Source of the DNA: Candidatus Mnemosynella biddleae
GTDB taxonomy: Archaea; Halobacteriota; Archaeoglobi; Mnemosynellales; Mnemosynellaceae
Direction of reading: 5' to 3'
NCBI GenBank assembly: GCA_002011165.2
Contig: MTMI02000007.1
Location: forward strand, 223,970 to 287,969
Length of the DNA: 64,000 nt
In this document: positions 5,588 through 20,160 of the stretch, piece by piece
Numbering within the stretch: position 1 is the stretch's first letter
How the letters are laid out: the number at the start of each line of letters is the position of its first letter
The notes under the pieces: model-generated
Database searches by the model: none
What the model saw: only the letters and a program-made list of their open reading frames with translations
Told to the model about the DNA's origin: nothing
Program-made: the position numbers and the translations under genes

Positions 5588-6550
5588 GTGAGAAAGAAGA
5601 ACTACTACATTTTATCCGATGGGTGGTTGAGAAGGAAAGAAAATACCATTTACTTCGAGAACGAAGATGGAAGAAGACCGATACCGGTTAATGCCATTCA
5701 TTCAATCTATGCTCTTGGATCTCTCTCTATAACCTCCGGGGCTCTCTCACTTTTCTCGAAAGAGGGAATTTGCATTCATTTCTTCAATCGATACGGCTTT
5801 TACGAGGGGAGTTTTTATCCCAGAGAATCTCTCATCTCAGGAGATCTCTTGGTTAAGCAGGTGGAGCATTATCTGGACGAGGAGAAAAGGAGAAATCTCG
5901 CTAGAGCTTTTGTTGAAGGAGCAATCTTGAATATGGGAAGAAATCTCTCAAATTACGGATTTGAGGAAAATTTTCTTCAGCTTCTCGAAGATCTAAAGGG
6001 ATGTTCGAAAATTGAGGAGATTATGGGAATTGAAGCAATTGCAAGAAATCGGTACTATTCTCACTTCGATGAGATTCTAAAGATGGAATTTGGAGCAAGG
6101 AGCAGAAGACCACCAAAGAATGAAGTTAATGCGATGATAAGTTTTGGGAACTCTCTGCTTTACTCTTCAATCATCTCAGAGATCTATCATACTCAGCTCA
6201 ATCCCACGATAAGCTATTTGCATGAGCCATCTGAAAGGAGATTCAGTTTAGCTCTTGATATCTCGGAGGTCTTCAAGCCAATCATCGTTGACAGACTCAT
6301 TTTCAATCTCGTAAATAAGAGGATTGTAAAAGAAGAGGATTTCAACTCTGAACTGGAGGGAGTTCTGCTGAATGAAGAGGGAAAGAGAAAATTCATAAAA
6401 GCTTTTAACGAAAAGCTGGAGCAGACGATAAAGCACAGAAAACTGAAGAGAAATGTCTCTTATCAGAGGCTCATGAGATTGGAATGCTATAAGCTTGTGA
6501 AGCACTTTTTTGGAGCCGAGGAATATCGTCCTCTGGTTGCGTGGTGGTAG
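5588..6550 (+). CDS. cas1: CRISPR-associated integrase Cas1 (type I-B)
   Basis: A 320-residue metal-dependent integrase that inserts spacers into CRISPR arrays together with Cas2. It has the beta-rich N-terminal domain (opening [20 protein letters not shown]) and the helical catalytic domain. The three conserved metal ligands are visible as E in [12 protein letters not shown] in YLHEPSERR, and D in [11 protein letters not shown]. The start is GTG 5588 with GAGGTGA just upstream, 11 bp after cas4 ends. Length and sequence fit the subtype I-B Cas1 group. Confidence 0.95.
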
Positions 6551-6816
6551 AGGTGTATGTGATAATAGCTTATGATGTTAGCGTTGAAAGAGTGAACAGG
6601 GTGAAGAAGTTTCTGAGAAGATATCTTAATTGGATTCAGAACTCTCTTTTTGAAGGCGAGCTCAGCGAAGCCGATCTTGAAGAAGTTAAAAGCGGATTGA
6701 GGGGAATAATAAACGAAGATGCAGATATGATCGTGATCTACAAATTCAGAAGCAGAGATGCAATGAAGAGAGAGGTTGTGGGGACTGAGAAGAGTATGAT
6801 AGATGAGGTGATTTGA
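6541..6816 (+). CDS. cas2: CRISPR-associated protein Cas2
   Basis: A 91-residue ferredoxin-fold protein that forms the central dimer of the Cas1-Cas2 integration complex. The opening [24 protein letters not shown] and the following [12 protein letters not shown] are typical Cas2 signatures; D in AYDV is the conserved acidic residue. The frame opens with tandem GTG codons at 6541 and 6544, inside the end of cas1; GTG 6553, giving the short YVII start common in the family, is equally possible. The gene ends 3 bp before the convergent vapC stop. Confidence 0.94.
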
Positions 6817-6819
6817 AAT

Positions 6820-7203
6820 TTAAATCAGATCAGAAACTGATATGGAGTCGATCACCCTTTTCGCTTTATTTCTCAGTTTTTCATCTTCTGTGACAAGTGG
6901 TTCATTCTTGCTTAAAGCAAGTTGCACATAAGAGGCATCGTAAAAGGTTAGATTCAACTCTGAGGAGACTCTTAGAGACTCTTTCCACTCTGGTTTCTCG
7001 AGATTCATGAGTTGAATCGCTCTCAAAATAACATCCATTAGTCTCTCTGCTTCGTGAAACTTCAAAGTTTTATGCAAATTTACCTCTTTCCACAAAGCGT
7101 TTCCTATCTCGTATCTCGCAAGCTCGGAGGTTGTGTTGTTTTTGAGTATCTCTGGTCTGAAAGTTCTTATCGCAACAAAAATTGAACTTGCGTCAAAGAT
7201 CAT
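6820..7203 (-). CDS. vapC: VapC-type PIN-domain toxin ribonuclease
   Basis: A 127-residue PIN-domain protein, normal VapC length. The acidic metal site is visible: D4 in MIFDASS, E in ELARYEIGNALWKE, D in LTFYDASYVQLAL, and the acidic cluster in PLVTEDEKLRNKA. VapC toxins cleave tRNA or rRNA when free of their VapB partner. It overlaps vapB by 4 bp and lies between the convergent cas2 and cas3 genes, inside the CRISPR-Cas locus. There it may act as an addiction module; the RNA target cannot be read from sequence. Confidence 0.9.
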   Translation of the reverse strand: MIFDASSIFVAIRTFRPEILKNNTTSELARYEIGNALWKEVNLHKTLKFHEAERLMDVILRAIQLMNLEKPEWKESLRVSSELNLTFYDASYVQLALSKNEPLVTEDEKLRNKAKRVIDSISVSDLI

Positions 7204-7430
7204 CTCTCTCTGTCCTCCCTTATGCTTTCTGTGATCCTCTCAGGAGATATTTTTTCCATAGTTTTCTGCAATTCTTTTATAGATTTTTTTATCTCTTCAA
7301 GCTCAATCTCCTCAACAGCCCTGATCAAAGCTTCTTTAGCAATTCTTCCCGGTTTTTTCCCAGCTTTTTCAAGCTTTTCTTTAATCTCCCTAGGCAATTT
7401 AACCGAAATGGTAACATACTTTGTAGACAT
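7200..7430 (-). CDS. vapB: VapB-type antitoxin
   Basis: A 76-residue protein with an N-terminal DNA-binding strand and helix of ribbon-helix-helix type (KYVTISVKLPREIKEKLEKAG) and a charged helical C-terminus that would wrap around VapC. It precedes vapC with a 4-bp overlap, the standard antitoxin-first order. On the minus strand a TATA-like CCTTATATTCC stands about 25 bp before the ATG and no Shine-Dalgarno is present, so the transcript is probably leaderless. It is expected to repress its own promoter. Confidence 0.88.
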   Translation of the reverse strand: MSTKYVTISVKLPREIKEKLEKAGKKPGRIAKEALIRAVEEIELEEIKKSIKELQKTMEKISPERITESIREDRER

Positions 7431-7537
7431 TAATGGTAGTTATGATAAGTAGGAATATAAGGTTTACCTTTAGAGGATGTGAATTATTGATTAAATCAGA
7501 GAATAAATTTGGTTGTTAACTTCATGTGATAGCATCA

Positions 7538-10000
7538 TTATAGCATAACGAAATTTAAAGATCTGTCTCCTAAATTAAGTCCAGAATCTATTTTGTAGTA
7601 TTTGTCCAACTCACTCTTTTTAATATATCTGTACTCTTCTAAGCCATCAATAGGATTTAGATTTAAAAATAGCATCCAGTATTTTTCGGAACATCGTACT
7701 TGAATCGTATAATTGTTTATTTCTTTCCTCATCTCTAGTATCTCCAACTTCTGTGTAAAACCTTTTTTGCTTTCGAATATTTCCTCCATTTTCTTTCTAA
7801 TCTCTTCAGCTATGTCGTTAATTTCAACAAATAAAGAGACTGTAGGTAACTTTTCCTGAATTAAATTAAATTCAGAGGTTTTTGAGAAATCCAACTTAAC
7901 AATTGAGTCTAGGATATTTTTGGAATCCTTTTTGGATCCCCTTTTTAGCACGATCTTATAATACTCATCAACGGAACTTAAGACAAAGTCTTTTTCTTCA
8001 ACTGTTCCACTAAATGTCCCAATAACATCCCTCGTAGCGTCTATAAGCGTGGAGTCATAGATGTATTTGTAAAACTCTTGTCTTTTATTCTTCAGAATGA
8101 CAATATTAACATAGCCTTCATCACTCTCGTCGTTCCTGTTACACCGACCAGCGGTTTGGATTAAGCAATCTAATGGAGCAAAATCTCTATAAACGATATC
8201 TATGCTAATATCAACTCCTGCTTCGATCAATTGGGTGGTTACTATTATCTTCCTCTTCTTGCCACCACCATTTTTGATTCTGTTTATTCTTCTTAGTCGA
8301 TAACTTGGAAGAATGTGTGTTGATAAGTTAATTAACTCCAAATCAGGAAAATTAGCAATTCCATCTTTATCGATACTGACATCTTTTTTGTCTACCCCAT
8401 AAAATAGTGCAAGCTCTTTTTTTAGGAATTCGTATAGTTCCTTACAAGAATTTATTGTATTTAAAACAATTAGTATATTTTTGTCTCCGTATAATATCTT
8501 ATTCAAGATTTCATATTTAAACTCCTCGAGATCTCTAATCTTTAGATCAAAATTAAAAACAACTCTATTAAAGGCATTAAAGTACTCTTTAGGATTCGTT
8601 ACCAACTCTTTAATCTCTTCGTCTCTAAAAATAAGTGGCCTAGTAGCGGTCATCAAAATTATCCAACAATTGAAATCACATGCTAAATGTTTTAGGACTT
8701 TATTAATCAGTAACCAATATTTATGCGGGACTGACTGGATCTCGTCAAGGATAAGTATAGAGTTGGTAATATTGTGGAATTTTCTTGCAGCCCTATTTTT
8801 ATTCGTAATCAAACTATGAAATAACTGGACGAATGTGGTTATTACTATTTCCGAGTGCCAACCCTCTGTAAGCAATAGAGACCTATTAAGTTCCTCAATA
8901 TTTAATTCACCGTCTTTGATTTCTTTGTATTTTATATCTGCGAGGTGATGATGAATTAAAAGCAAGTTAGATGGAATTTCCTCGTGATTAAGTTTCAGGA
9001 TGTCTTCAATAATTTTAGTGTTTTGATCGATAATACTGAGAAATGGCAAAGAATAAATGATCTTAGGAGTGAAACCAAAACTTGTTTTTATTCTTTCCCT
9101 TAATTTAAGGGCGAATGATAAACCAATTAGAGTTTTACCACACCCTGTGGGCAAGTTTATTGAGAGAATTCTTTCGTAAGTTAGGTCAATATCGCTAACT
9201 TTTGCAATAACTTCGTTGTAAGCTTTTTCTCGTATAATGTCCACTTCTGTCTTAGGCTTCCCAAACTTCTTTTTCTTGTACTCATCAACGATATCGCTTG
9301 GTATATCCTCTCTTTTAGGAAGATTTCTTCTTCCAGAAGCATCTAATTTGTCTGCATCGAGTAGTATTGAGTAAAAAAGGAGGATTAAAAAGTAGTATCT
9401 TACGTCATAGTCTTTGAAACTATTTTTACAAATTTTCTTAATATCTTTTCGTATTTGTTGTGTTAAGTTTTCTAAATTCTTAATCTCGATTAATATTTTT
9501 GATATATCTGAATAATCTAGAGAATTATAGATTTCAACAACTTCAGTCAAGTTATTAGAAAATATATCATTCAATTGTTCTTTTACTATCTCTAACTCAC
9601 TTTGATCTTTTAGTTTCTCTGCTTCTTCATTTAGAATATCTCTTAAATTACCATGGTGTTTATTTATCACAATCCATGCCACTGCAGGCAAATACCAAAA
9701 TTCATCGAGTTTTTGAGCACCCGATAAAAAATTCCTGACAACCAAATACCCAACTAAACTCGATAGAAAACCATGTTGGGCATATTGTGTTTTTCTCCCG
9801 TTTTCCAACCAATTTTGGAAGTAACTAGTAGCTTTACCAAAGTCGTGTGTAATTCCAATCAAATATGCAACTTCAGTAAAAACTTCTTTACTCTTTATTG
9901 TTTTTGATTTAAGTATCTCTTTGGATAATCTGCCCACATTTTCCAGATGCTCTTTTAATAATTTGTCTGGATGAGACTTCAGTTTAAAGGAATGAGACAT
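7538..10000 (-). CDS. cas3: CRISPR-associated nuclease-helicase Cas3 (HD + DExH helicase)
   Basis: An 820-residue effector that unwinds and degrades DNA marked by Cascade. The N-terminal HD nuclease shows H in KEHLENVGRL, the HD pair in ITHDFGKATSYF and KHHGNL. The helicase has motif I LPTGCGKT, motif II ILDEIQSVP, motif III MTATRP and motif VI QTAGRCNR. I chose ATG 10000; the frame also opens at TTG 10012. It overlaps the end of cas5. The gene is visibly more AT-rich than the cas4-cas1-cas2 operon or cas6. It is the last gene of the leftward interference operon and ends 107 bp from vapB on the same strand. Confidence 0.95.
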   Translation of the reverse strand: MSHSFKLKSHPDKLLKEHLENVGRLSKEILKSKTIKSKEVFTEVAYLIGITHDFGKATSYFQNWLENGRKTQYAQHGFLSSLVGYLVVRNFLSGAQKLDEFWYLPAVAWIVINKHHGNLRDILNEEAEKLKDQSELEIVKEQLNDIFSNNLTEVVEIYNSLDYSDISKILIEIKNLENLTQQIRKDIKKICKNSFKDYDVRYYFLILLFYSILLDADKLDASGRRNLPKREDIPSDIVDEYKKKKFGKPKTEVDIIREKAYNEVIAKVSDIDLTYERILSINLPTGCGKTLIGLSFALKLRERIKTSFGFTPKIIYSLPFLSIIDQNTKIIEDILKLNHEEIPSNLLLIHHHLADIKYKEIKDGELNIEELNRSLLLTEGWHSEIVITTFVQLFHSLITNKNRAARKFHNITNSILILDEIQSVPHKYWLLINKVLKHLACDFNCWIILMTATRPLIFRDEEIKELVTNPKEYFNAFNRVVFNFDLKIRDLEEFKYEILNKILYGDKNILIVLNTINSCKELYEFLKKELALFYGVDKKDVSIDKDGIANFPDLELINLSTHILPSYRLRRINRIKNGGGKKRKIIVTTQLIEAGVDISIDIVYRDFAPLDCLIQTAGRCNRNDESDEGYVNIVILKNKRQEFYKYIYDSTLIDATRDVIGTFSGTVEEKDFVLSSVDEYYKIVLKRGSKKDSKNILDSIVKLDFSKTSEFNLIQEKLPTVSLFVEINDIAEEIRKKMEEIFESKKGFTQKLEILEMRKEINNYTIQVRCSEKYWMLFLNLNPIDGLEEYRYIKKSELDKYYKIDSGLNLGDRSLNFVML

Positions 10001-10706
10001 ATTCGTCCCCAACTTCGTAAATTGTGCCGCTTCGAATTTTTATTGGTTTGCCATTTACTTCATAAACGACATTACAATACTCAAGAACTTTTCTGTCGTT
10101 ATCCATGTAGAGTGGCACTGTTTCTCTACCGTATCTTTTTCCTTCCTCTGGAATTATTTTAATCGTGTCTATTCTAGCAACGCTGTGTAAATCTTTGATT
10201 TCATCTTTAATCGAGAGAGGGACAGCTGAGAAATCATCAATAAACTTGAAATTGGCAATCATTTCAGTAATACCAAGATAAGGTGTATAAACTGTCTGAT
10301 GGTTTTCTAGGAATCGTTTTAATTTCTCATATAATTTTTTAAGGGTTGAATTTTTGAATCGTACGTATATTCTGTATTTAGGCTCTTTAACAAATTCATA
10401 TGGTGTAGGTGCTCTTGGATCTTTGAGTTTCCATAGGAAAAACCAATTTGGTTCATCTGTTTTTACTATACTGATCGGGATAACTATTTTCTTTACTGGA
10501 TTCAGGATTCTAATAGAGAATTCCATGTTATCTCTGGAAAATAAAGAATAGTATGAGTCTCTTGGGAGACCAGCTATTGCTGCGAGGAGACCAGCTATTG
10601 TTGTCCCTGTAGGAAAAGGATAAGTAAGTGGAGATGTTGTAGTTTCAAATCTTCTAAAATGTGCAAAATCACTCCAAATATCAAAAACTAATACTCTGTC
10701 CTTCAT
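9984..10706 (-). CDS. cas5: CRISPR-associated protein Cas5 (type I-B)
   Basis: A 240-residue RAMP-fold Cascade subunit that caps the 5' handle of the crRNA. The N-terminal RVLVFDIWSDFAHFRRFETT and the glycine-rich FPTGTTIAGLLAAIAG are characteristic of Cas5 of the I-B (Cas5h) group. It lies between cas7 (6 bp gap) and cas3 (overlap), as in canonical type I-B operons. Confidence 0.92.
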   Translation of the reverse strand: MKDRVLVFDIWSDFAHFRRFETTTSPLTYPFPTGTTIAGLLAAIAGLPRDSYYSLFSRDNMEFSIRILNPVKKIVIPISIVKTDEPNWFFLWKLKDPRAPTPYEFVKEPKYRIYVRFKNSTLKKLYEKLKRFLENHQTVYTPYLGITEMIANFKFIDDFSAVPLSIKDEIKDLHSVARIDTIKIIPEEGKRYGRETVPLYMDNDRKVLEYCNVVYEVNGKPIKIRSGTIYEVGDEYVSFL

Positions 10707-10712
10707 ATTTCT

Positions 10713-11882
10713 TCACAGTTCTAGCTCAATTACTTGGTTGTTCTGTAAGCCAACCTTCCTAATAAACTCATTTTTCAGTCCATCATTTGTTAAAACTGAT
10801 CCGTTTACTACGAATGTCACTCTCTTGTCAGCTTTGAATTCTATTCTCTCTATCTTATCTTTGTAGTCGTTTAGAGCGCCTATTAATTCTGAAATATCTA
10901 CTTTCACTTCTGAAATATCCCTTATTTTTTCTTGTTCTTCTTCGCTGAGATCGTTGCCATCCTTATTTTTGAGCTTAATCATTTTATCCAAATCCCCGAT
11001 ATGGAAATTATTCTCTTTATACACCACTCTTAACAGAAATCTAGGCATTTGACCTATTTTTGATCTTGTTATCAAGTTCTTAGTTCCATTCCAGATACCG
11101 TCTAGAAGCAATTTTATGTCGTCTTCTGATAAACCAGTATTTTTCGCTGCATTCTCATTTACAATCCCATAGAAGCATATTAACGAATACGGTAACTTGT
11201 ATTCCTCAGAAAACTCTGCTTGTCTTTTTCCTTTCCTGAAACCCTCACCCGGTTCTACTGGCATTGTAATTGATCCTTTGTAGAAATTTACATCTACTTT
11301 ATGTAATGACTTTCCAAACTTGAATTGTATGGGTCCCGTTTCCTGAACACCAATGTTTGCAACTGCCAAGGTTGCACCAAAAAGCCTTAAGTCAATGAAT
11401 TTGTCAAATAGTTTCTCTCTCAACTTCTTTGTCCTAATTTCTTCAAATTTCTCAAATAGTTCCATTTTTCTTTCCTCATCTACAGCGTCGCCAAGAGCTT
11501 CATTGAATTTTTCCAGTCTATTCCCCTTACTTCCCTCCTTAAGAATTTCATCAAGCTTTTCTACGATTTTCTTAGCTTCGTCACCACCTATTTCGTCTTC
11601 CAATATTTTTTCAATTTCCTCTATTAGTTTTGCCCCTCTTGCTTTGATGAGTTCTGTACCTTCTTCAATTACTTTTTCAGCTTGGATGAAGATGTTTTGT
11701 CCCTTAAAATCTCTAAGGTAGTCTCTTATCGTCCTCTTTAGGCGCACATCAGTTACTATGTTAACTCCAGTTTCTTCATCAATTCTTGGCCTATTTTCTT
11801 CCATTGGATCTCCATTCGGGTTTGCATCAGTTACATCATACAAAAACAAAATTTCCGACCTATTTTTTATGATATCACTCAT
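10713..11882 (-). CDS. cas7: CRISPR-associated protein Cas7/Csh2 (type I-B)
   Basis: The backbone subunit of Cascade that coats crRNA. The N-terminal FLYDVTDANPNGDPMEENRPR and TDVRLKRTIRDYL, and the later FIDLRLFGATLAVANIGVQETGPIQF, identify the Csh2/DevR group. ATG 11882 is preferred: it overlaps the cas8b stop and has GGGGGTG a few bases upstream; an in-frame start at 11912 is less likely. At 389 residues it seems longer than most Csh2 proteins. Between the RDYL and FIDLRLFGAT motifs lies a run of roughly 100 highly charged, helical residues rich in Glu and Lys. Confidence 0.94.
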   Translation of the reverse strand: MSDIIKNRSEILFLYDVTDANPNGDPMEENRPRIDEETGVNIVTDVRLKRTIRDYLRDFKGQNIFIQAEKVIEEGTELIKARGAKLIEEIEKILEDEIGGDEAKKIVEKLDEILKEGSKGNRLEKFNEALGDAVDEERKMELFEKFEEIRTKKLREKLFDKFIDLRLFGATLAVANIGVQETGPIQFKFGKSLHKVDVNFYKGSITMPVEPGEGFRKGKRQAEFSEEYKLPYSLICFYGIVNENAAKNTGLSEDDIKLLLDGIWNGTKNLITRSKIGQMPRFLLRVVYKENNFHIGDLDKMIKLKNKDGNDLSEEEQEKIRDISEVKVDISELIGALNDYKDKIERIEFKADKRVTFVVNGSVLTNDGLKNEFIRKVGLQNNQVIELEL

Positions 11883-13722
11883 TTCGTTCACCCCCTTTGA
11901 ATACTCTACCAAAATTCAATCCAAGAGCAAAATAATAGCTTATTTCATCATCAGAGATAGCCCAGCCATTTTCATCAGCTTCGATAAGATATTTAGAGAT
12001 CAAAGTTTCAAGCCAAGGATAACCTGCATCATATTGTTTTAGTTTTTCTATTACTTCCGGAAGTAGCCTTTTTATAAGTCTTTTATTTAATTTCAATCCG
12101 TGCAATTTCTTCCTAAACGGCGTATCTTTCCTTTTTGCATATTGTATATCTAAAAGGAAGCTCACTAGAATACCCTCCAAGAAAACTGCTTTCTTATCTG
12201 GGGTGTCGAAAGCTCTTGAAAATTCGCTAAAAAAGTTCTCCACTTTTTCAGAATCTTTTATTTTTATCTCTTCCATAAGTTTCACCTCCTTAAATTTCTC
12301 AGCTCTAAAATCTGAACAAACTAAACCCAACTCCAAAAGAAAATTAAGCAGATATAAGGATTTGAGGGACAGTAGTTTTTCACTCCACTCATATCCCCTT
12401 TCATGTTCTTCTCTGATAGCTGCAATCAAATGTCTAATAAAATATCTTTTGTCTACCTGTTTAGCTTCTAAGATATCCCCTAAAATGTTTAAACTCGATT
12501 TATCAAAGATTTTTCTATCCTTTTCCCTATGATAAAAGAAATCCCCAATCATTCCTGCTAAGTTAAGTTTCGGAATTGATTCTCCATTCCACATTCCTTT
12601 TGTAAAATCACCAGACCACTTTTCACCTAAAATAATTTTTAATCGGCCCTCTTTGAAAATACTTTTTTGATTAATATTACGAAAAGTATCGTAAATTCTC
12701 TTTATCCAAGATGGTGGAACTTCCTCAACATATCTTAAAATATCAAAAAAGTCATCCTTGCCTTTTGTTTTGTAGAAAATGAAAATCAGATTAAACACAT
12801 CCTTCTTTTCCTTCAATATTTCCAAAATGTCTTCTTCAGCGTTAATTAGGCCTTCTCTGTAATCACTACTTCTTCTACGTAACTCAATTTCATTAATTAT
12901 TTCGGCTAAAGTTTCTTTTTGTATTGCAAAAGGTATAACAAAGTATTGATACCCATAAAGTTGAAATGATAGTTGGCTCTTCAAAAATTCTTTACCTACT
13001 TGTAAATCAAGAGCACAATCAAAACAGATAGGTAATTGTTTCCAAGAATTGGCTCGATCGAATTCATACGCAAAACCAACTTTATCCACAGTAAAAACAA
13101 AAAAGGGAGAAGCGGGGATTACAGTTTTTCTTTGCATACATAAGCAACAAACACCTTCCCCTATAGATTCTACTTTATGTTTATAGTAAAAATCTTCCAT
13201 AGATGTGATTTTAAAAATTTCAACAAATTCTGGAATTTCCGCTAGATACATCTCACTGTCTTTATTATCCCTTATTTTGATTGTTGCAAGACAACCACGC
13301 TTTTCTTGTTTATTAAGTTGATTGTATTTTTCTGATATCCCTTCAAAAATTTTATTTTTATTTTCTTCAATGGCATTTTTTATCAGCTTGAGGGATATAA
13401 TGTTATCAAATTTCTCCAGATATCTACTAAACCAAAGCCTCCACCTTTTTTCTAATTTGTCAGGACTTGTTAATTTTGCAGACAAAGTAGCATCATACTG
13501 GGCATGCCCAAACGTTCTATAGAGTATTTTTCTTGCTTTTTCTTGATCAAAATCCTCAATATGGACGCCATCAAATACTAAACTATCATCTTCCCTCCTA
13601 AAGACTACACAAATCATCTTTTTCGTGTTTGCTAGCTTAGACGATTCAGTTAGAACTTGAATGTCATCTAAATTTTTATTTTCCCTTATGTATTGTCCCA
13701 ATTCTTTAATGGCTTTTAACAT
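11875..13722 (-). CDS. cas8b: CRISPR-associated large subunit Cas8b/Csh1 (type I-B)
   Basis: A 615-residue large Cascade subunit, the signature protein of type I-B, which recognises the PAM. A zinc-binding pair is visible: CCLCMQRKTV in the first third and CFDCALDLQVG shortly after, as in Csh1 (TM1802-type) proteins. The N-terminal FRREDDSLVFDGVHIEDFD is also family-like. The start codon immediately follows the cas6 stop, and its end overlaps cas7. Like cas7, cas5 and cas3, it is markedly AT-rich. Confidence 0.92.
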   Translation of the reverse strand: MLKAIKELGQYIRENKNLDDIQVLTESSKLANTKKMICVVFRREDDSLVFDGVHIEDFDQEKARKILYRTFGHAQYDATLSAKLTSPDKLEKRWRLWFSRYLEKFDNIISLKLIKNAIEENKNKIFEGISEKYNQLNKQEKRGCLATIKIRDNKDSEMYLAEIPEFVEIFKITSMEDFYYKHKVESIGEGVCCLCMQRKTVIPASPFFVFTVDKVGFAYEFDRANSWKQLPICFDCALDLQVGKEFLKSQLSFQLYGYQYFVIPFAIQKETLAEIINEIELRRRSSDYREGLINAEEDILEILKEKKDVFNLIFIFYKTKGKDDFFDILRYVEEVPPSWIKRIYDTFRNINQKSIFKEGRLKIILGEKWSGDFTKGMWNGESIPKLNLAGMIGDFFYHREKDRKIFDKSSLNILGDILEAKQVDKRYFIRHLIAAIREEHERGYEWSEKLLSLKSLYLLNFLLELGLVCSDFRAEKFKEVKLMEEIKIKDSEKVENFFSEFSRAFDTPDKKAVFLEGILVSFLLDIQYAKRKDTPFRKKLHGLKLNKRLIKRLLPEVIEKLKQYDAGYPWLETLISKYLIEADENGWAISDDEISYYFALGLNFGRVFKGGERNE

Positions 13723-14433
13723 TCATACCACCTTCACCATCCCAAACCCCATCGAATTTCTCTCGCCGAAACCAGCTTGATAGCCGAGTTTCAGGAGCTC
13801 TGGAGATCCTCGAGCCAAAAAAACCATATCAACGCATCTGTGGTGCGTGTTCTTTATCGTTATCTTCTTTGCCTTTGCTTCAATCACTTCAATTTCAAGT
13901 TCATCGTTTTCAGGTTCTCTTTTATATAATGTGACATACTTTTTAATAAGATTTTTCCTTATGTTTTCATAAAACTTTGGATCTTTTGGATAGAGATCTA
14001 AAATTCTCCCATCTCTGAAAGTTGTGACACTTATTGGAGACATCGTAATGAATTTGGCTTCACTCTTTATTTCAGGCTCTCTCATAACCTGAATGCTTCT
14101 AATCACAAACGGAAGCCTCTCAATTCTCCCCTCAGGTCTTTCAAGAGCTCCAGAAACAAAAGCTTCTGCTATCTCTTTTTTCGGAGTGGAGAAGAAGAGA
14201 TAAGCAAAATCACTCTCTACTTTCATCCTTCCATCTAAGATCTGAAAGCGACTCTCTGGGATTTGAAGTCTGCTGAAGGTAAAGAGCTTCATAGTTCTGG
14301 GTTTGTGCAGTTCTAAAGAAAGATCAGGGTCAGCTCTCTCAACGCATCTATAGATCCAGCTCGCGATGTAATAGTTGTAGTTAATTGTCAGGTCTTTGGG
14401 TTCGAAGAGTTCAAACTCTATTTTGAACCTCAC
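13723..14433 (-). CDS. cas6: CRISPR RNA-processing endoribonuclease Cas6
   Basis: A 236-residue RAMP endoribonuclease that cuts precursor crRNA within the repeat. The C-terminal glycine-rich loop AGFGERNSMGFGMVKV is diagnostic of Cas6. A histidine in LELHKPR around residue 43 is a candidate general base. The start is GTG 14431-14433. It heads the interference operon and is directly followed by cas8b. Its base composition looks like the host genes to its right rather than the AT-rich cas8b-cas3 block. Confidence 0.92.
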   Translation of the reverse strand: MRFKIEFELFEPKDLTINYNYYIASWIYRCVERADPDLSLELHKPRTMKLFTFSRLQIPESRFQILDGRMKVESDFAYLFFSTPKKEIAEAFVSGALERPEGRIERLPFVIRSIQVMREPEIKSEAKFITMSPISVTTFRDGRILDLYPKDPKFYENIRKNLIKKYVTLYKREPENDELEIEVIEAKAKKITIKNTHHRCVDMVFLARGSPELLKLGYQAGFGERNSMGFGMVKVV

Positions 14434-14522
14434 AATTATTAATTTTCAAATCCTCAACTATAAATCTGATCCGTGCTCTCAGAAAGTATTATTATATGTC
14501 TCACTCTCACGAGGTTTCTGGA

Positions 14523-15743
14523 ATGATTGTTGCAATTGGGAGAGCCAGAAAGGATGCAAAAGCTCTTGGTCATGCTCTGAGAATAGAGTGCTTGAGTCTC
14601 GGAGGCATCAGAAGAGCAGAAGAGCTCGATTTCCCAGATCTCAAAGAGACAATTCCAATTTTCTTTTTCGGAAGAGATGATATTAAGCTGATAAGGGAGG
14701 TTGAAAAGAGAATCAGAGAAATCACACCTGTTTATCAGATTGCGATTCTTAGGAAAAAAGAGGTGAGAAATGCAAGAATGGAGGAACTCAGAAACGCTTT
14801 TGAATTTGCGAAGGCTAAGATGAGAATTGGAATGAAATTTAGCGATGTTTTTCAGTTCTCCGTCAGAAACGAGATGAACCTCGAAGTCCATCCTGATTAT
14901 GACACCTATTTCATTCTCGGAGATGGATTTGTAGAGAATACTAAAAGCATTCTCGGTTTTGAAGTCAAAAAAGGAAATCTCATTCTTAGAGGATTGAAGA
15001 ATGAGGAAAGAATTTATGTCCCTGAGCTCAAGGCTGTAGTGAGCAAGAAAATAGGAGAAAGTCTCGAAGTCAAATATCTTAGCGAAGTCTCGCCAAGAGA
15101 AATTGATCTGAAGAGGATGATAGAGACGAATAAGGAATTCCTCAAAACTCTTGAGAGGATTTCGGTGAAGTTCATAGAGAAGAGCTCTGATGGGTGTGTT
15201 GGGGTTCCTTTCAGCGGAGGAAAGGACAGTTTGGCATCTCTGATACTTGCTAAAAAGGCTCTGAAAGATGTTAAAGCCATTTACATCAGAACAAACTATG
15301 AGATGCCCTATACAGAAGAATATGTGGAGGAAATCTGCAAAAAACTGAATGTCGAGCTTTTGGTTGAGGATGCATTTCTTGATGTCTCTTTGTTTGGTAT
15401 ACCAACCCATGAGAATCGGTGGTGCACTGCAAAGAAGCTTGAAGCTTTAAAAAGAGTTGTAGAAGAGGAGAGAATCAGAACACTCATCGTTGGGGATAGA
15501 GATGGAGAGAGCAGAGTAAGAAGAATGAGAGGTTTTGTACTTCAGAGAGTTGCAAAAGAGATCTTTCCAATAAAACATTGGAGTGGTGCAATGGTTCAGC
15601 TCTATGATCTCATGAACGGTTTTGAGTTACATCCTCTTTACTATGAAGGATTCTATAGACTTGGATGTACGATCTGTCCTTCTCTGAGTCCTTGGGAAAG
15701 AGCTCTTCTCGATGTGCACAAAGTGCAGGAGGAGATAAATTGA
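14523..15743 (+). CDS. PP-loop ATPase of the PAPS reductase family, function unknown
   Basis: A roughly 406-residue protein. The N-terminal half is an archaeal domain I cannot name. The C-terminal half is an adenine nucleotide alpha-hydrolase with P-loop PFSGGKDSLASLILA, a downstream RWCTAKKLEAL, and a C-terminal cysteine pair in GCTICPSLSPWE that could hold a metal or iron-sulfur site. Such enzymes adenylate a substrate for sulfuration or reduction; CysH is one member, but others modify tRNA. ATG 14523 has GAGG 7 bp upstream; ATG 14496 overlaps the TATA-like TATTATTATATG. The stop overlaps the trmY start, so the enzyme shares an operon with a tRNA methyltransferase. Confidence 0.75.
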   Translation: MIVAIGRARKDAKALGHALRIECLSLGGIRRAEELDFPDLKETIPIFFFGRDDIKLIREVEKRIREITPVYQIAILRKKEVRNARMEELRNAFEFAKAKMRIGMKFSDVFQFSVRNEMNLEVHPDYDTYFILGDGFVENTKSILGFEVKKGNLILRGLKNEERIYVPELKAVVSKKIGESLEVKYLSEVSPREIDLKRMIETNKEFLKTLERISVKFIEKSSDGCVGVPFSGGKDSLASLILAKKALKDVKAIYIRTNYEMPYTEEYVEEICKKLNVELLVEDAFLDVSLFGIPTHENRWCTAKKLEALKRVVEEERIRTLIVGDRDGESRVRRMRGFVLQRVAKEIFPIKHWSGAMVQLYDLMNGFELHPLYYEGFYRLGCTICPSLSPWERALLDVHKVQEEIN

Positions 15744-16342
15744 GTGAGAGAGCATTCATAATCTATTCAAGAAAGGGTGTCACAACCCCAAAATTCTCTT
15801 TAAATGATCTCCCCGGAGCAGGAAGAATGGATCTCGTTGCGAGATGCGTCATCTACGCTCTCTGGCTCTCACATAAGCTGAGAGATGATTCAAAAATTTA
15901 CTGCATTCTTGAAGGTCCTCCAAAACCTCCAAAAACAATTCTCTTCACACCGACAATGAGGAGAGTTTATCCAAATGAAAGGGGGGTTGCCTCTTGGATA
16001 AGAATAGCTCTGAAAGCTGAAGAAAGTGAAGAGTGGATTGAAGTCAATCCTGGAATAAGGATTGCGAAGAAAAGTATAAAAGGTGTCTCGGAAGAGTTAA
16101 AGGACGAAGGATTCGAGTTTTACGTTCTCCATGAGGATGGAGAAGATGTTAGAAACATAGAATTCGGAGATAAAGTTGCTTTCTTCCTCGGAGATCATAT
16201 TGGTCTTCCTGAAAGAGTTGAAGAGACTCTTAAGAGAAAATATCACGCAAAGAGTATCTCTCTCGGAAAGAGAAGTTATCTGTCCTCTGCTTGTATTTCT
16301 ATTGTGCACAACGAACTTGATAGAAGGGAAAATTTTATTTAG
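15740..16342 (+). CDS. trmY: tRNA (pseudouridine(54)-N1)-methyltransferase TrmY
   Basis: A 200-residue SPOUT methyltransferase that converts pseudouridine 54 of archaeal tRNA to N1-methylpseudouridine with SAM. The trefoil-knot SAM site shows as VAFFLGDHIGLPE, and the family N-terminal AFIIYSRKG...FSLNDLPGAGRMDL is clear. The start is TTG 15740, overlapping the preceding stop, with AGGAGGAGA upstream; there is no ATG in the right place. The last codons contain the palindrome TTGTGCACAA, possibly part of the operator of the next gene. Confidence 0.92.
   Translation: MSERAFIIYSRKGVTTPKFSLNDLPGAGRMDLVARCVIYALWLSHKLRDDSKIYCILEGPPKPPKTILFTPTMRRVYPNERGVASWIRIALKAEESEEWIEVNPGIRIAKKSIKGVSEELKDEGFEFYVLHEDGEDVRNIEFGDKVAFFLGDHIGLPERVEETLKRKYHAKSISLGKRSYLSSACISIVHNELDRRENFI
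16302..16311. promoter_or_regulatory. Palindrome TTGTGCACAA, possible secondary operator
   Basis: A perfect 10-bp palindrome inside the 3' end of trmY, about 40 bp upstream of the TGTGCA inverted repeat at 16345-16361 and sharing its core TGTGCA. It could be an auxiliary site for the RHH protein encoded at 16365. It is short enough that chance remains possible. Confidence 0.35.
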
Positions 16343-16364: not shown

Positions 16365-16571
16365 ATGGTTGAAACCAAGAGCTTCGGGATAAGAATTGAA
16401 AAAAACGTTGTTGATAGAGTTGACGAGATATGTGAGAAGTTAAAGGATTTGAATGCAAGCAGGTCTGAGGTAATTGAAGTCATCCTGAAGTCATTTTTCA
16501 ACACAAAAATAAATCACGAACAAGTGCTGAGAAGCTTAATAACAAAAAATAGATTGGAAAAGAGATCATAG
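16365..16571 (+). CDS. Ribbon-helix-helix DNA-binding protein
   Basis: A 68-residue small protein that opens SFGIRIEKNVVDRVDEICEKL and continues LNASRSEVIEVILKSFF, a strand-helix-turn-helix order with an acidic/SRSEVI helix start typical of RHH/CopG regulators. ATG 16365 is preferred over the long upstream frame because a TATA box and an inverted repeat lie directly before it and no Shine-Dalgarno is present, so it is probably leaderless and self-repressed. No toxin gene follows; the next gene converges on it. It may be an autonomous regulator. Confidence 0.72.
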   Translation: MVETKSFGIRIEKNVVDRVDEICEKLKDLNASRSEVIEVILKSFFNTKINHEQVLRSLITKNRLEKRS

Positions 16572-17429
16572 GGAAGGAAGCTCTATTGCATTCATCGCCT
16601 CTTCTGGAAGCTCTATTTCAATCACTTCATTGTAATCATAGAAGTGCATTACCATCCTCATTTCCATCCTCATCGTGAAGTTCAGATCTTCTGAATTTTC
16701 AACGGATATGTTGAAGTCCTCAGGTGAAATCGTCATGAGCATGTAAATCTCTGATTTCATCGGAAGCTTTGAATCTTTAGCTATCCATTCTTTCATACTG
16801 ATTTCCGAGTTCTTCAGAGCCTCCTCCAAAATAGCCTCATTCATCCCCTGAAGCTCTCCAAGTGAGTATTGGGATTTTATAGCTTCCCAGAACTTCTGAA
16901 GATCTGGTTTGACCTCAAGCACATAGCATTCCACTCCATTCACCTTTTCATCAGGAAGTCTTCTAACTTCAGAAGAATTCAAAAGCATCATCTGTTGCTT
17001 AATCTGATCTTCCGAGCTCCAAGACTGTTCAACGAGCTCTTCAGGCAACTTCATTTTCATCCATTGTTCTCCCATCTCTGGCGATCTCATTTTCATGTAC
17101 ATTGTATCGTTCATCAGGTAGACATCACTTTCAATACTCATGTCTCCTTCTTCACCATGGATCTCTGAGATTGTGCTCACGAAAATCTTCCTTTCCCCAT
17201 AGTTTACTGCTCCTTCTCCTCTCATTTTCATCAAGATGCTTGCTGTCTTCTCTCCTATTGTGCTCATGTTCATTTCAGAATCCATGGAAAATCTGTAGCT
17301 TTTAACATTCTCCATTGAATTCAGTGTCATCTCAACTATTTCTCCCGCACTGGGTGTCGAAAGAATAAGATAACCTGCTGAAACTGCGAGAATTACAATA
17401 ACGAGAATTCCGAGAGCTCTAGTCTTCAT
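16566..17429 (-). CDS. Secreted or membrane-anchored LolA/LppX-like protein
   Basis: A 287-residue protein with an N-terminal hydrophobic segment (ALGILVIVILAVSAGYLIL) that acts as signal or anchor; no lipobox cysteine is seen. The rest is a beta-rich domain full of Met and Glu, with repeats of the pattern 'SYRFSMDSEMNMS', 'MYMKMRSPEMGEQWMKMKLP' and 'PMKSEIYMLMTISPEDFN'. This is the style of the LolA/LppX/DUF6612 superfamily of hydrophobic-ligand carriers outside the membrane. Ligand and role are unknown. Several N-glycosylation sequons (NSS, NMS, NIS, NFT) fit an extracellular location. Confidence 0.6.
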   Translation of the reverse strand: MKTRALGILVIVILAVSAGYLILSTPSAGEIVEMTLNSMENVKSYRFSMDSEMNMSTIGEKTASILMKMRGEGAVNYGERKIFVSTISEIHGEEGDMSIESDVYLMNDTMYMKMRSPEMGEQWMKMKLPEELVEQSWSSEDQIKQQMMLLNSSEVRRLPDEKVNGVECYVLEVKPDLQKFWEAIKSQYSLGELQGMNEAILEEALKNSEISMKEWIAKDSKLPMKSEIYMLMTISPEDFNISVENSEDLNFTMRMEMRMVMHFYDYNEVIEIELPEEAMNAIELPSL

Positions 17430-17502: not shown

Positions 17503-18504
17503 TTAACTCTTAACCAGTAGCATCTTGCCTTTTGAGGTCACTCTGTAAATACCTTCATCATCTCTTTCCACGAGCATTTTTGATTCAAGCTCTCTGAGGT
17601 GTTGATAGACTGCTTGAACCGAAATCGGTTTGTATTCTCTTAATCTTTTCCAGAGTGCATAGCCATGAGAAGGAGTCTCAAGAAGAAGGTGGAGTATGAT
17701 TTCTTTAGTTCCAGAAACTTCCAGGGCAACTCCTCTGAAGCTTCCGGTGAGGAGGAGAACTGCTTTTCTTCCCTTCACTTCAGAGAGAGCGGAATATGCT
17801 ATAGCTCCTGAAGGACTCAGTAAAAATCCCATTTTGGCTAGGGATCTCTGAGCTCTCAGAATCTCCTCCTCACTAACCGATATTAACTTTCCATTCGATT
17901 CTTTAATCGCTTTCAGAGCACTCTTCTTGAAAATCGGTTTTTGAATTAATTCTCTTGCAATACTATCTTTTGGAAACTTCGGTTTGACTGCAATGATCTT
18001 GGGAAGTCTTTCGCTCATACCGCTATCAAGAGCAATCTTAAACCCTTCCCAGATCATCGAAACATTCGATCCACTCCCCATAGGGAGAACAATCACTTCT
18101 GGATCGATTCTCTCTGCAATCTCAAAAGCTATAGTCATCTCTCCGATATGGTAAAATCTTTCTTTGAGAATCTCTCCTCTTTTTGTGTACTTAGCTCCTA
18201 GAAGCGAAAGAGAGAGATTCATTATTGGAGTGAGACACTCCATCCCTGCTTTTGCAGCATAAGTTGCTAGGGAGAGACATCTGTCTAAATCCTCATCGCA
18301 GATCACCTTGGTCTCACCTCTGTCTAAAAGCCAAGAAATTGCAAATGCAGAAGCACGATCTTCAAAAGATCCCGTCGGATTTCTAGATTCATCCTTCAGA
18401 AAAATTTCTGAGGAGAGTTGAAAGAGAGGGGTATCACCCTCGCCCAGACTTATCCTTCTTTCCACAGGAGGTAGAAGATCTTCATACTTCCATATTCCTT
18501 TCAT
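17503..18504 (-). CDS. Threonine-synthase-like pseudoenzyme fused to a PadR-like winged helix; candidate PLP-pathway regulator
   Basis: A 333-residue protein. Residues 1 to about 260 follow the fold-type-II PLP enzyme threonine synthase: [11 protein letters not shown], then [19 protein letters not shown], then a glycine-rich [18 protein letters not shown]. In true enzymes the motif is NPTGSFKDR and its Lys binds PLP; here it is Glu (about residue 48, codon GAA). The usual ASTGN substrate loop is replaced by [18 protein letters not shown]. Residues 265-333 form a winged helix of PadR type ([20 protein letters not shown], then [17 protein letters not shown]). It is divergent from pdxST across a gap with a perfect palindrome, so I infer a transcription regulator of PLP synthesis. 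The start is ATG 18504 or TTG 18507. The enzyme-only reading is unlikely given the lost lysine. Confidence 0.7.
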
Positions 18505-18530
18505 CAAAAGCTTTATTACTTCTTTGGGAA

Positions 18531-18552
18531 TATTAAAGTATGCGCTTTAATA
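18531..18552. promoter_or_regulatory. Perfect 8-6-8 palindrome between the regulator and pdxS
   Basis: TATTAAAG (18531-18538), spacer TATGCG, CTTTAATA (18545-18552). The right arm abuts the pdxS Shine-Dalgarno GAGGTG at 18553. The AT-rich arms could double as TATA elements for the two divergent genes. It is the obvious candidate site for the winged-helix fusion protein encoded at 17503-18504. Confidence 0.65.
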
Positions 18553-18564
18553 GAGGTGGTGCTA

Positions 18565-19575
18565 ATGGTTAAGCTTGAAAATCTGAGACATGGAACAGAG
18601 CTTCTGAAAAGAGGTTTTGCGAAGATGCAAAAGGGTGGAGTGATTATGGATGTCACTAACGCTGATCAGGCCATCATAGCGGAAGAAGCTGGAGCTGTTG
18701 CGGTCATGGCTCTTCAGAAGGTTCCAGCAGATATCAGAGCATCTGGAGGCGTTGCGAGGATGGCTGATCCAACTAAAATTCAGGAGATTATGGATGCAGT
18801 TACGATTCCAGTTATGGCAAAAGTTAGAATCGGTCATAGTGCAGAAGCCCTCATTCTCGAAGCTCTTGGAGTGGACATGATAGATGAGAGTGAAGTTCTT
18901 ACTCCTGCTGATCCATTTTTCCACATAGATAAAAGGAAATTCACAGTTCCTTTTGTCTGCGGAGCAAGAAATCTCGGAGAGGCAGTGAGAAGAATATGGG
19001 AAGGAGCTGCTATGATAAGAACAAAAGGAGAGGCCGGAACAGGAAACATCATTGAAGCAGTCAGACATGTGAGGCTTGTAAACGAAAACATAAGAGTTCT
19101 TCAGAGAACGAGCGACGATCAGATTTATGGGGTTGCGAAGAAATTTGCAGAAGCATATCTAAGACCTCTCTCAGAGGTCAGAGATGTGAGCGGGCTCTCG
19201 GAGAGAGTTCTTGAAAACGAAAAGGTCTACGAGGATTACACGTATCATGAAATCATCAGCGGAATTTACGAGATCCTTCTTGAGATTAAGAAACTCGGAA
19301 GACTTCCGGTTGTGAACTTTGCAGCAGGGGGAGTTGCAACTCCAGCCGACGCTGCTCTCATGATGCAGATGGGAATGGATGGAGTTTTCGTGGGAAGCGG
19401 AATATTCAAGTCCGAGAATCCCGAGAGGATGGCAAGGGCGATTGTTGAGGCGGTGAACAATTATGATAAGCCAGATGTTCTTGCCGAGATCTCGAAAGGA
19501 CTTGGAGAACCAATGAGAGGAATTGATGTGAAGGAAATCGAGGAAGGAGAGAAATTGCAGGTAAGAGGATGGTAA
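18565..19575 (+). CDS. pdxS: Pyridoxal 5'-phosphate synthase lyase subunit PdxS
   Basis: A 336-residue (beta/alpha)8 enzyme that builds PLP from ribose 5-phosphate, glyceraldehyde 3-phosphate and ammonia from PdxT. Visible are the opening [20 protein letters not shown], the catalytic Lys in [10 protein letters not shown], Lys in GEAGTGN-adjacent [12 protein letters not shown], and the phosphate site [21 protein letters not shown] with [12 protein letters not shown] 18565 has GAGGTG 6 bp upstream; the frame also opens at GTG 18556. It is followed without a gap by pdxT. Confidence 0.97.
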
Positions 19576-20160
19576 ATGAGAGTCGGAATACTGGCTCTCC
19601 AAGGTGATGTAGAGGAGCACGTAGAAGCAACCAAAAGAGCAATGGAGAAAAAAGAAATCTCAGGAGAGATCGTGAAAATCAAGCATAGTGGAGTGCTCAA
19701 AGATTGCGATGCTCTAATCATTCCAGGGGGAGAGAGTACAACGCTCAGCAGACTGATGATCAGAGAGGGGATTTTTGAAGAAGTGAAAAAATTCGCAGAG
19801 GAAGGAAAACCTATCATGGGAGTTTGTGCGGGATTGGTTCTTCTTGCGAAGAGATGCGAGAATCCTCAGAAGAACCAGAAACTCCTCGAGCTCATGGACA
19901 TAACTATAAGGAGAAATGCTTTTGGAAGACAGAGGGAATCTTTCGAAGCAGTTCTGGAAATAGACGGAAAGCCATATAACTGTGTGTTCATAAGAGCACC
20001 AGCCGTCGTGGACGTCGGAAAGAATGTGAAAGTTCGAGGAAGATTCAATGACGTGATTGTTGCGGTTGAGGAAGAAAACCTCATTGGTCTGGCTTTCCAT
20101 CCAGAGCTCACCGAAGATACAAGATTTCACGAAGAACTTATTCAGAGGGCTAGAACTTGA
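19576..20160 (+). CDS. pdxT: Pyridoxal 5'-phosphate synthase glutaminase subunit PdxT
   Basis: A 194-residue class I glutamine amidotransferase that feeds ammonia to PdxS. It shows GILALQGDVEEH at the N-terminus, the oxyanion motif PGGESTTLSRL, the nucleophile Cys in MGVCAGLVLLAK, and the His-Glu pair in AFHPELTED. Its ATG directly follows the pdxS stop. The 3' end overlaps the convergent RPA-associated gene by 11 bp. Confidence 0.97.
   Translation: MRVGILALQGDVEEHVEATKRAMEKKEISGEIVKIKHSGVLKDCDALIIPGGESTTLSRLMIREGIFEEVKKFAEEGKPIMGVCAGLVLLAKRCENPQKNQKLLELMDITIRRNAFGRQRESFEAVLEIDGKPYNCVFIRAPAVVDVGKNVKVRGRFNDVIVAVEEENLIGLAFHPELTEDTRFHEELIQRART

Follow-up and report, generated by a model that had tools for sequence, protein, structure and literature searches.

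In the 64,000-nucleotide stretch of the Candidatus Mnemosynella biddleae genome analysed here (the window), a gene that diverges from the PLP synthase pair pdxS-pdxT encodes a threonine-synthase-like protein with a glutamate in place of the Schiff-base lysine and a winged helix at its C-terminus (Table 1). Comparison with its orthologs favors, with rather more confidence than doubt, a role as a non-catalytic regulator that responds to a B6 vitamer, binds an inverted repeat in the intervening DNA, and controls both pdxST and itself. The protein is probably a switch for the B6 synthesis genes. Within this reading, the regulation of pdxST appears well supported by conservation, and the sensing of PLP is plausible; we further infer that the protein binds DNA, that it acts as a repressor and not an activator, and which ligand it takes. 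The repeat, a deletion in the small domain, the loss of the NPFRLEG motif, and an already annotated architecture of this kind (NF004170) all go beyond the original prediction.

Table 1. Features of the candidate regulator-pdxST locus, in window coordinates.
Feature	Position	Strand	Basis
Candidate regulator gene, encoding a PALP domain (fold type II, like threonine synthase) and a C-terminal PadR-like winged helix	17503..18504	-	ORF, profiles, structure model
PALP-like sensor domain, residues 2-256 (P0001 numbering)	17740..18504	-	alignment, structure model
PadR-like winged helix, residues 267-334	17506..17709	-	PF03551, alignment, structure model
Possible TATA box for pdxS, GCTTTATTA	18510..18518	+	read by eye
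Putative operator, inverted repeat ATTAAAGT-ATGC-GCTTTAAT	18532..18551	.	conservation, motif search, intergenic alignment
pdxS, PLP synthase lyase subunit	18565..19575	+	TIGR00343, 507 bits
pdxT, PLP synthase glutaminase subunit	19576..20160	+	TIGR03800, 204 bits

Candidate regulator protein and its altered pocket

The reading frame of the regulator is intact, running for 333 codons from an ATG at 18502-18504 to a stop at 17503 on the minus strand, and a TTG at 18505-18507, one codon upstream of the ATG, offers an alternative start. Profile searches identify a PALP domain (PF00291, 122 bits) and, as originally predicted, a C-terminal PadR-like winged helix (PF03551, 30.6 bits against a cut-off of 27). 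The winged-helix profile likewise scores 34.8 and 31.9 bits in two orthologs and 25.3 bits, below the cut-off, in the third, from the congener Candidatus Mnemosynella bozhongmuii. The putative recognition helix (residues 297-309) is among the best-conserved parts of the protein in an alignment of the four orthologs, with seven of its 13 columns invariant. The remainder of the protein is of fold type II and resembles threonine synthase (phmmer E = 8.9e-24), whose order of motifs it keeps. The AlphaFold model has a pLDDT of 90.6, with only the linker at residues 259-264 poorly modeled, and the solved structures closest to it are those of threonine synthases, several of them PLP-bound (Foldseek E = 3e-21, TM 0.70). 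As threonine synthases were part of the input alignment for AlphaFold, this match cannot be counted as separate from the sequence similarity. A stand-alone PadR-like winged helix of 75 amino acids is also encoded on contig C3 of genome G000 (locus L108, 1280-1507, plus strand); it scores 40.5 bits against PF03551, matches the winged-helix portion of the PRK05638 profile, and is possibly the source or a relative of the fused domain.

In threonine synthases, general structural knowledge assigns roles to the Schiff-base lysine, to the O3' Asn of the ASTGN motif, to a Thr at the pyridine nitrogen, and to the motif NPFRLEG, in degenerate form N(P)xRLEG, which is used around the substrate phosphate. 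The lysine position is occupied by Glu49 in all four regulators, compared with Lys, within the motif (S/T)GSFKDR, in 18 of 18 aligned threonine-synthase-type sequences. The original prediction, which had read a preserved motif order with Glu at the PLP lysine (NPTGSFEDR) and a replaced ASTGN loop from the window alone, therefore holds well: the glutamate is found in every ortholog, none of the full-length homologs found retains the lysine (0/4), and in the window protein DEDLD stands in place of ASTGN. Because the glutamate recurs in all four orthologs, encoded by either GAA or GAG, it is not attributable to chance or to sequencing error. Comparison of the four regulators with the 18 Lys-bearing sequences reveals a set of invariant pocket replacements (K49E, T73D, N75D, T76R, Q123E, N145S, A146G, G147S, E231S and A233S). 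The O3' Asn has become Asp, and the pocket as a whole is acidic, with Arg76 and His120 as new invariant residues.

Other parts of the enzyme have been lost or retained selectively. Approximately 45 residues of the small domain are deleted after residue 95, and NPFRLEG is gone, with F(Y)H(I/V)GE or MHVGE found instead. The pyridine-N Thr is kept in two regulators and is Ala in the other two. The phosphate loop is kept, as PMGSGSN in the window protein, and is enriched in Ser, with its Gly-x-Gly retained in all four regulators. Since the replacements are invariant at an overall identity of 40%, they indicate a new conserved use rather than decay. The best reading of these sequences is that the fold cannot form a Schiff base with PLP and would act as a non-catalytic sensor. 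The Mnemosynella biddleae genome also encodes two further threonine-synthase-like enzymes, both of which keep the lysine, one scoring far over the TIGR00260 cut-off and the other over that of PRK06450, so that the regulator copy was free to change.

Conservation of the candidate regulator and the intergenic repeat

Four full-length members were found in all, from 60 close genomes, 394 genomes of the phylum, and a pattern scan of GTDB with one genome per species, in which only the motif NPTGSFED and an N-terminal MKGIWKY-type motif were used, and which, even with the phylum sample, could miss distant members. In addition to the window protein, these are the ortholog from the congener, which is 66% identical to it, and two from a second Archaeoglobi family, JdFR-42 (44%) and the isolate S009_4_esom (40%). 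All of these archaea are uncultured, and they make up a small group. A search of viral contigs for regulator orthologs found none. The four regulators form a single clade (support 100/100), separate from the two groups of threonine synthases that these archaea have, on a long stem branch of 2.26 changes per column. As dS is saturated and dN/dS not computable, selection was assessed from codon-position counts; between the two Mnemosynella species, differences at positions 1, 2 and 3 amount to 0.24, 0.17 and 0.59, a pattern indicating that the gene is under purifying selection.

The divergent arrangement that had been described for the window, where the TIGR00343 and TIGR03800 matches lie on the strand opposite to the regulator, recurs at pdxS in every full-length homolog (4/4), and pdxT follows pdxS in both loci examined, those of the window and JdFR-42. 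On the 3' side of the regulator gene lies a DUF6612 protein in Mnemosynella and, in the other family, a protein labeled as NADHX epimerase/dehydratase-like from a reading of the ORF with no profile behind it. As these downstream neighbors differ between the families, pdxS is the sole conserved neighbor among those seen. The DUF6612 protein of the window (16566-17429, same strand as the regulator) begins with a signal-like stretch, and its counterpart in the congener lies at 539-1429 of locus L010.

The regulator and pdxS are separated by approximately 60 bp, and the pdxS start is more likely the ATG at 18565 than the GTG at 18556, as judged by homology. Located 12-13 bp upstream of the pdxS start codon is the inverted repeat, whose arms can be extended to TATTAAAG and CTTTAATA at 18531-18552. 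No conserved block in the otherwise drifting intergenic alignment is longer, and the repeat has zero or one mismatch in all four regulator-bearing loci, being perfect in the congener (ATTAAAGT-ATGC-ACTTTAAT) and taking the form ATTAAAGT-GTTT-ACTTGAAT in JdFR-42 and S009_4_esom. Each of the four genomes contains a single exact match to the degenerate form, ATTAAAGT-N4-RCTTKAAT, always at pdxS. Upstream of pdxS in the 29 Archaeoglobaceae that have no regulator, the repeat is absent in every case (29/29), the best match having at least four mismatches and mostly six to eight. When this short, AT-rich stretch was shuffled by dinucleotides, 81 of 5000 replicates also gave a palindrome with 8/8 matching arms; the argument therefore rests on the conservation of the repeat and not on the palindrome itself. 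The conservation of this palindrome between the two divergent genes, with one copy per genome, lends direct support to the predicted binding of the regulator to DNA at this site. In a search of the window genome for other targets, only sites with two mismatches were found, and these did not rise above a reversed-pattern control. A site with one mismatch in genome G038 was also considered as a further target; it falls within a coding ORF and appears to be a chance match.

The joint distribution of regulator and repeat, seen in only four genomes, tracks family lines (families f1 and f3 versus f2), and their association could be due in part to shared ancestry; the PdxS tree (support 88/87, unrooted) is compatible with the regulator-bearing lineages being related. 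Within PdxS, an insert of approximately 30 residues near residues 195-230 is common to the window protein and the 29 Archaeoglobaceae sequences (approximately 333-336 amino acids) and is absent from the JdFR-42 family (300-303 amino acids). Because this insert groups the window with the 29 regulator-less Archaeoglobaceae, the repeat goes with the regulator and not with the insert. In the congener assembly, contigs C116 and C127 each carry a 3' part of pdxS and the 5' part is found on C66, which probably reflects a contig end duplicated during assembly.

Proposed mechanism and rival explanations

In the mechanism that we envisage, the former threonine-synthase fold would serve as a ligand-binding domain, and a regulator dimer would bind the repeat via its PadR-like winged helices and thereby keep both pdxST and its own gene from being transcribed. 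The TATA-like motif is carried by the congener as well, and it would possibly place the pdxS transcription start inside the repeat. As the repeat lies between this possible TATA box and the pdxS start, beside the regulator's own start, repression of both genes would be the simplest reading. The signal would be a phosphorylated B6 vitamer that occupies the former PLP cup, where the surviving phosphate loop would hold it, resulting in feedback control. This ligand, probably PLP or PMP, would be either the product of the neighboring genes or a vitamer whose amine could pair with Glu49. Given that two orthologs have Ala for the pyridine-N Thr and that the pocket has turned acidic, PLP is no more plausible a ligand than PMP or some other phosphorylated compound. 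These two features also count against the B6-sensor reading itself, as they do not describe the usual PLP site.

It is conceivable, if rather unlikely, that the protein regulates pdxST in response to a ligand unrelated to B6, such as threonine, O-phosphohomoserine, a phospho-amino acid, or one of the PdxST substrates (glutamine, ribose 5-phosphate or glyceraldehyde 3-phosphate). The parent fold binds O-phosphohomoserine, and changes have affected the lysine and the O3' Asn in all four proteins and the pyridine-N Thr in two of them, in a pocket that is now acidic and contains the new invariant residues Arg76 and His120. However, the NPFRLEG motif has been lost, the only operator-like site is found at pdxS with none at threonine genes, and the loop that holds the phosphate of PLP has been kept and enriched in Ser.

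Less probable still is that the gene is a decaying pseudogene or an unrelated neighbor, and that something else reads the palindrome, as part of the pdxS promoter or as an RNA element. While the length of the stem branch and the AT-richness of a palindrome within a probable promoter would fit such an explanation, the ORF is intact in four genomes down to 40% identity with the codon-position bias of purifying selection, the new pocket residues are invariant, and the recognition helix is among the best-kept parts of the protein. Furthermore, the repeat is missing where the regulator is missing, and no Rfam family scores above its gathering threshold at the repeat. The annotation of PRK05638 implies another possibility, in which the protein would be a winged-helix enzyme of fold type II, still active or altered in its specificity, or else would serve as a trigger enzyme. 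Its best NCBIfam match is indeed to a threonine synthase (NF004170), a model of 442 positions that spans the winged helix. Yet that match, at 208 bits, falls short of the 421-bit cut-off, all four proteins have Glu where the Schiff-base lysine would be, ASTGN, NPFRLEG and the 45 or so small-domain residues are lost, and two lysine-keeping enzymes are available elsewhere in the genome, which together make enzymatic activity very improbable.

Relation to known systems and neighboring genes

The bacterial MocR/PdxR regulators similarly combine a PLP-enzyme fold with a winged helix, are divergent from pdxST, and have a palindromic or repeated intergenic site (PMC5320631). At the level of sequence, the regulator described here has the same arrangement, its gene pointing away from pdxST across an operator-like repeat. 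The construction is different, in that MocR/PdxR proteins join an N-terminal GntR winged helix to a fold type I aminotransferase, whereas the regulator joins a fold type II domain to a C-terminal PadR-like one and has lost the lysine. The original prediction that this design was made independently is likely to be correct with respect to MocR, which is reported to be missing from Archaea (PMC5320631), but the winged-helix fusion as such is not unique.

The fusion of threonine synthase to a winged helix is already a curated architecture in NCBIfam NF004170 (PRK05638, 'threonine synthase'), in which PALP is followed by a C-terminal winged helix as in the regulator. This is the best family match of all four orthologs (208.5, 198.5, 164.6 and 144.8 bits), and the window protein aligns to profile positions 198-436, running through the winged helix. 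Compared by profile, the regulator differs from this family in its sub-cut-off scores, the loss of the lysine and substrate motifs, and its shortened domain; the inactivated, pdxST-linked version of the fusion appears to be new. ThrC (TIGR00260; PDB 1uim, 2zsj, 6cgq) shares the fold and motif order, but it lacks the winged helix and retains the cofactor lysine and the other elements missing from the regulator. With the PadR family the regulator has the winged helix in common, its sensor being instead a PALP fold, and no PadR C-terminal dimerization part was seen in it.

Among archaeal regulators, those of the RbkR type consist of a CTP-dependent riboflavin kinase and a winged helix. They are likewise a cofactor-enzyme fold joined to a winged helix that controls the genes for that cofactor, yet they involve a different enzyme and cofactor, and their kinase is active.

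Neither the regulator protein nor any archaeal pdxST regulator was found to be described in the open-access literature, and a survey of the PLP pathway in bacteria and archaea, in which regulators were not analysed, names only those of the PdxR type (PMC9997740). As MocR/PdxR is reported absent and no archaeal regulator was found, the control of vitamin B6 synthesis in archaea appears to have no known regulator, and the present locus offers a concrete protein, a 20-bp site, and a guess at the ligand. There is about an even chance that the protein is an archaeal repressor that senses B6 vitamers, perhaps PMP via the glutamate, and that a fold type II enzyme gave rise to it on losing its lysine. 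Archaea would then have their first known regulator of PLP synthesis, evolved in parallel to PdxR/MocR and independently of it. If so, the combination of a PLP enzyme and a winged helix as a B6 sensor would have at least two origins in unrelated PLP folds, the present one involving removal of the cofactor lysine instead of its retention.

Elsewhere in the window, a Cas6 gene (PF01881 and PF21350) is located at 13723-14433, and a repeat search of positions 6000-16000 found no CRISPR array. An ORF with a PAPS-reductase domain (14496-15743) overlaps at its end, by 79 bp and in another frame, the start of an ORF for a putative SAM-dependent RNA methyltransferase (PF04013, 15665-16342), whose true start is probably further in.
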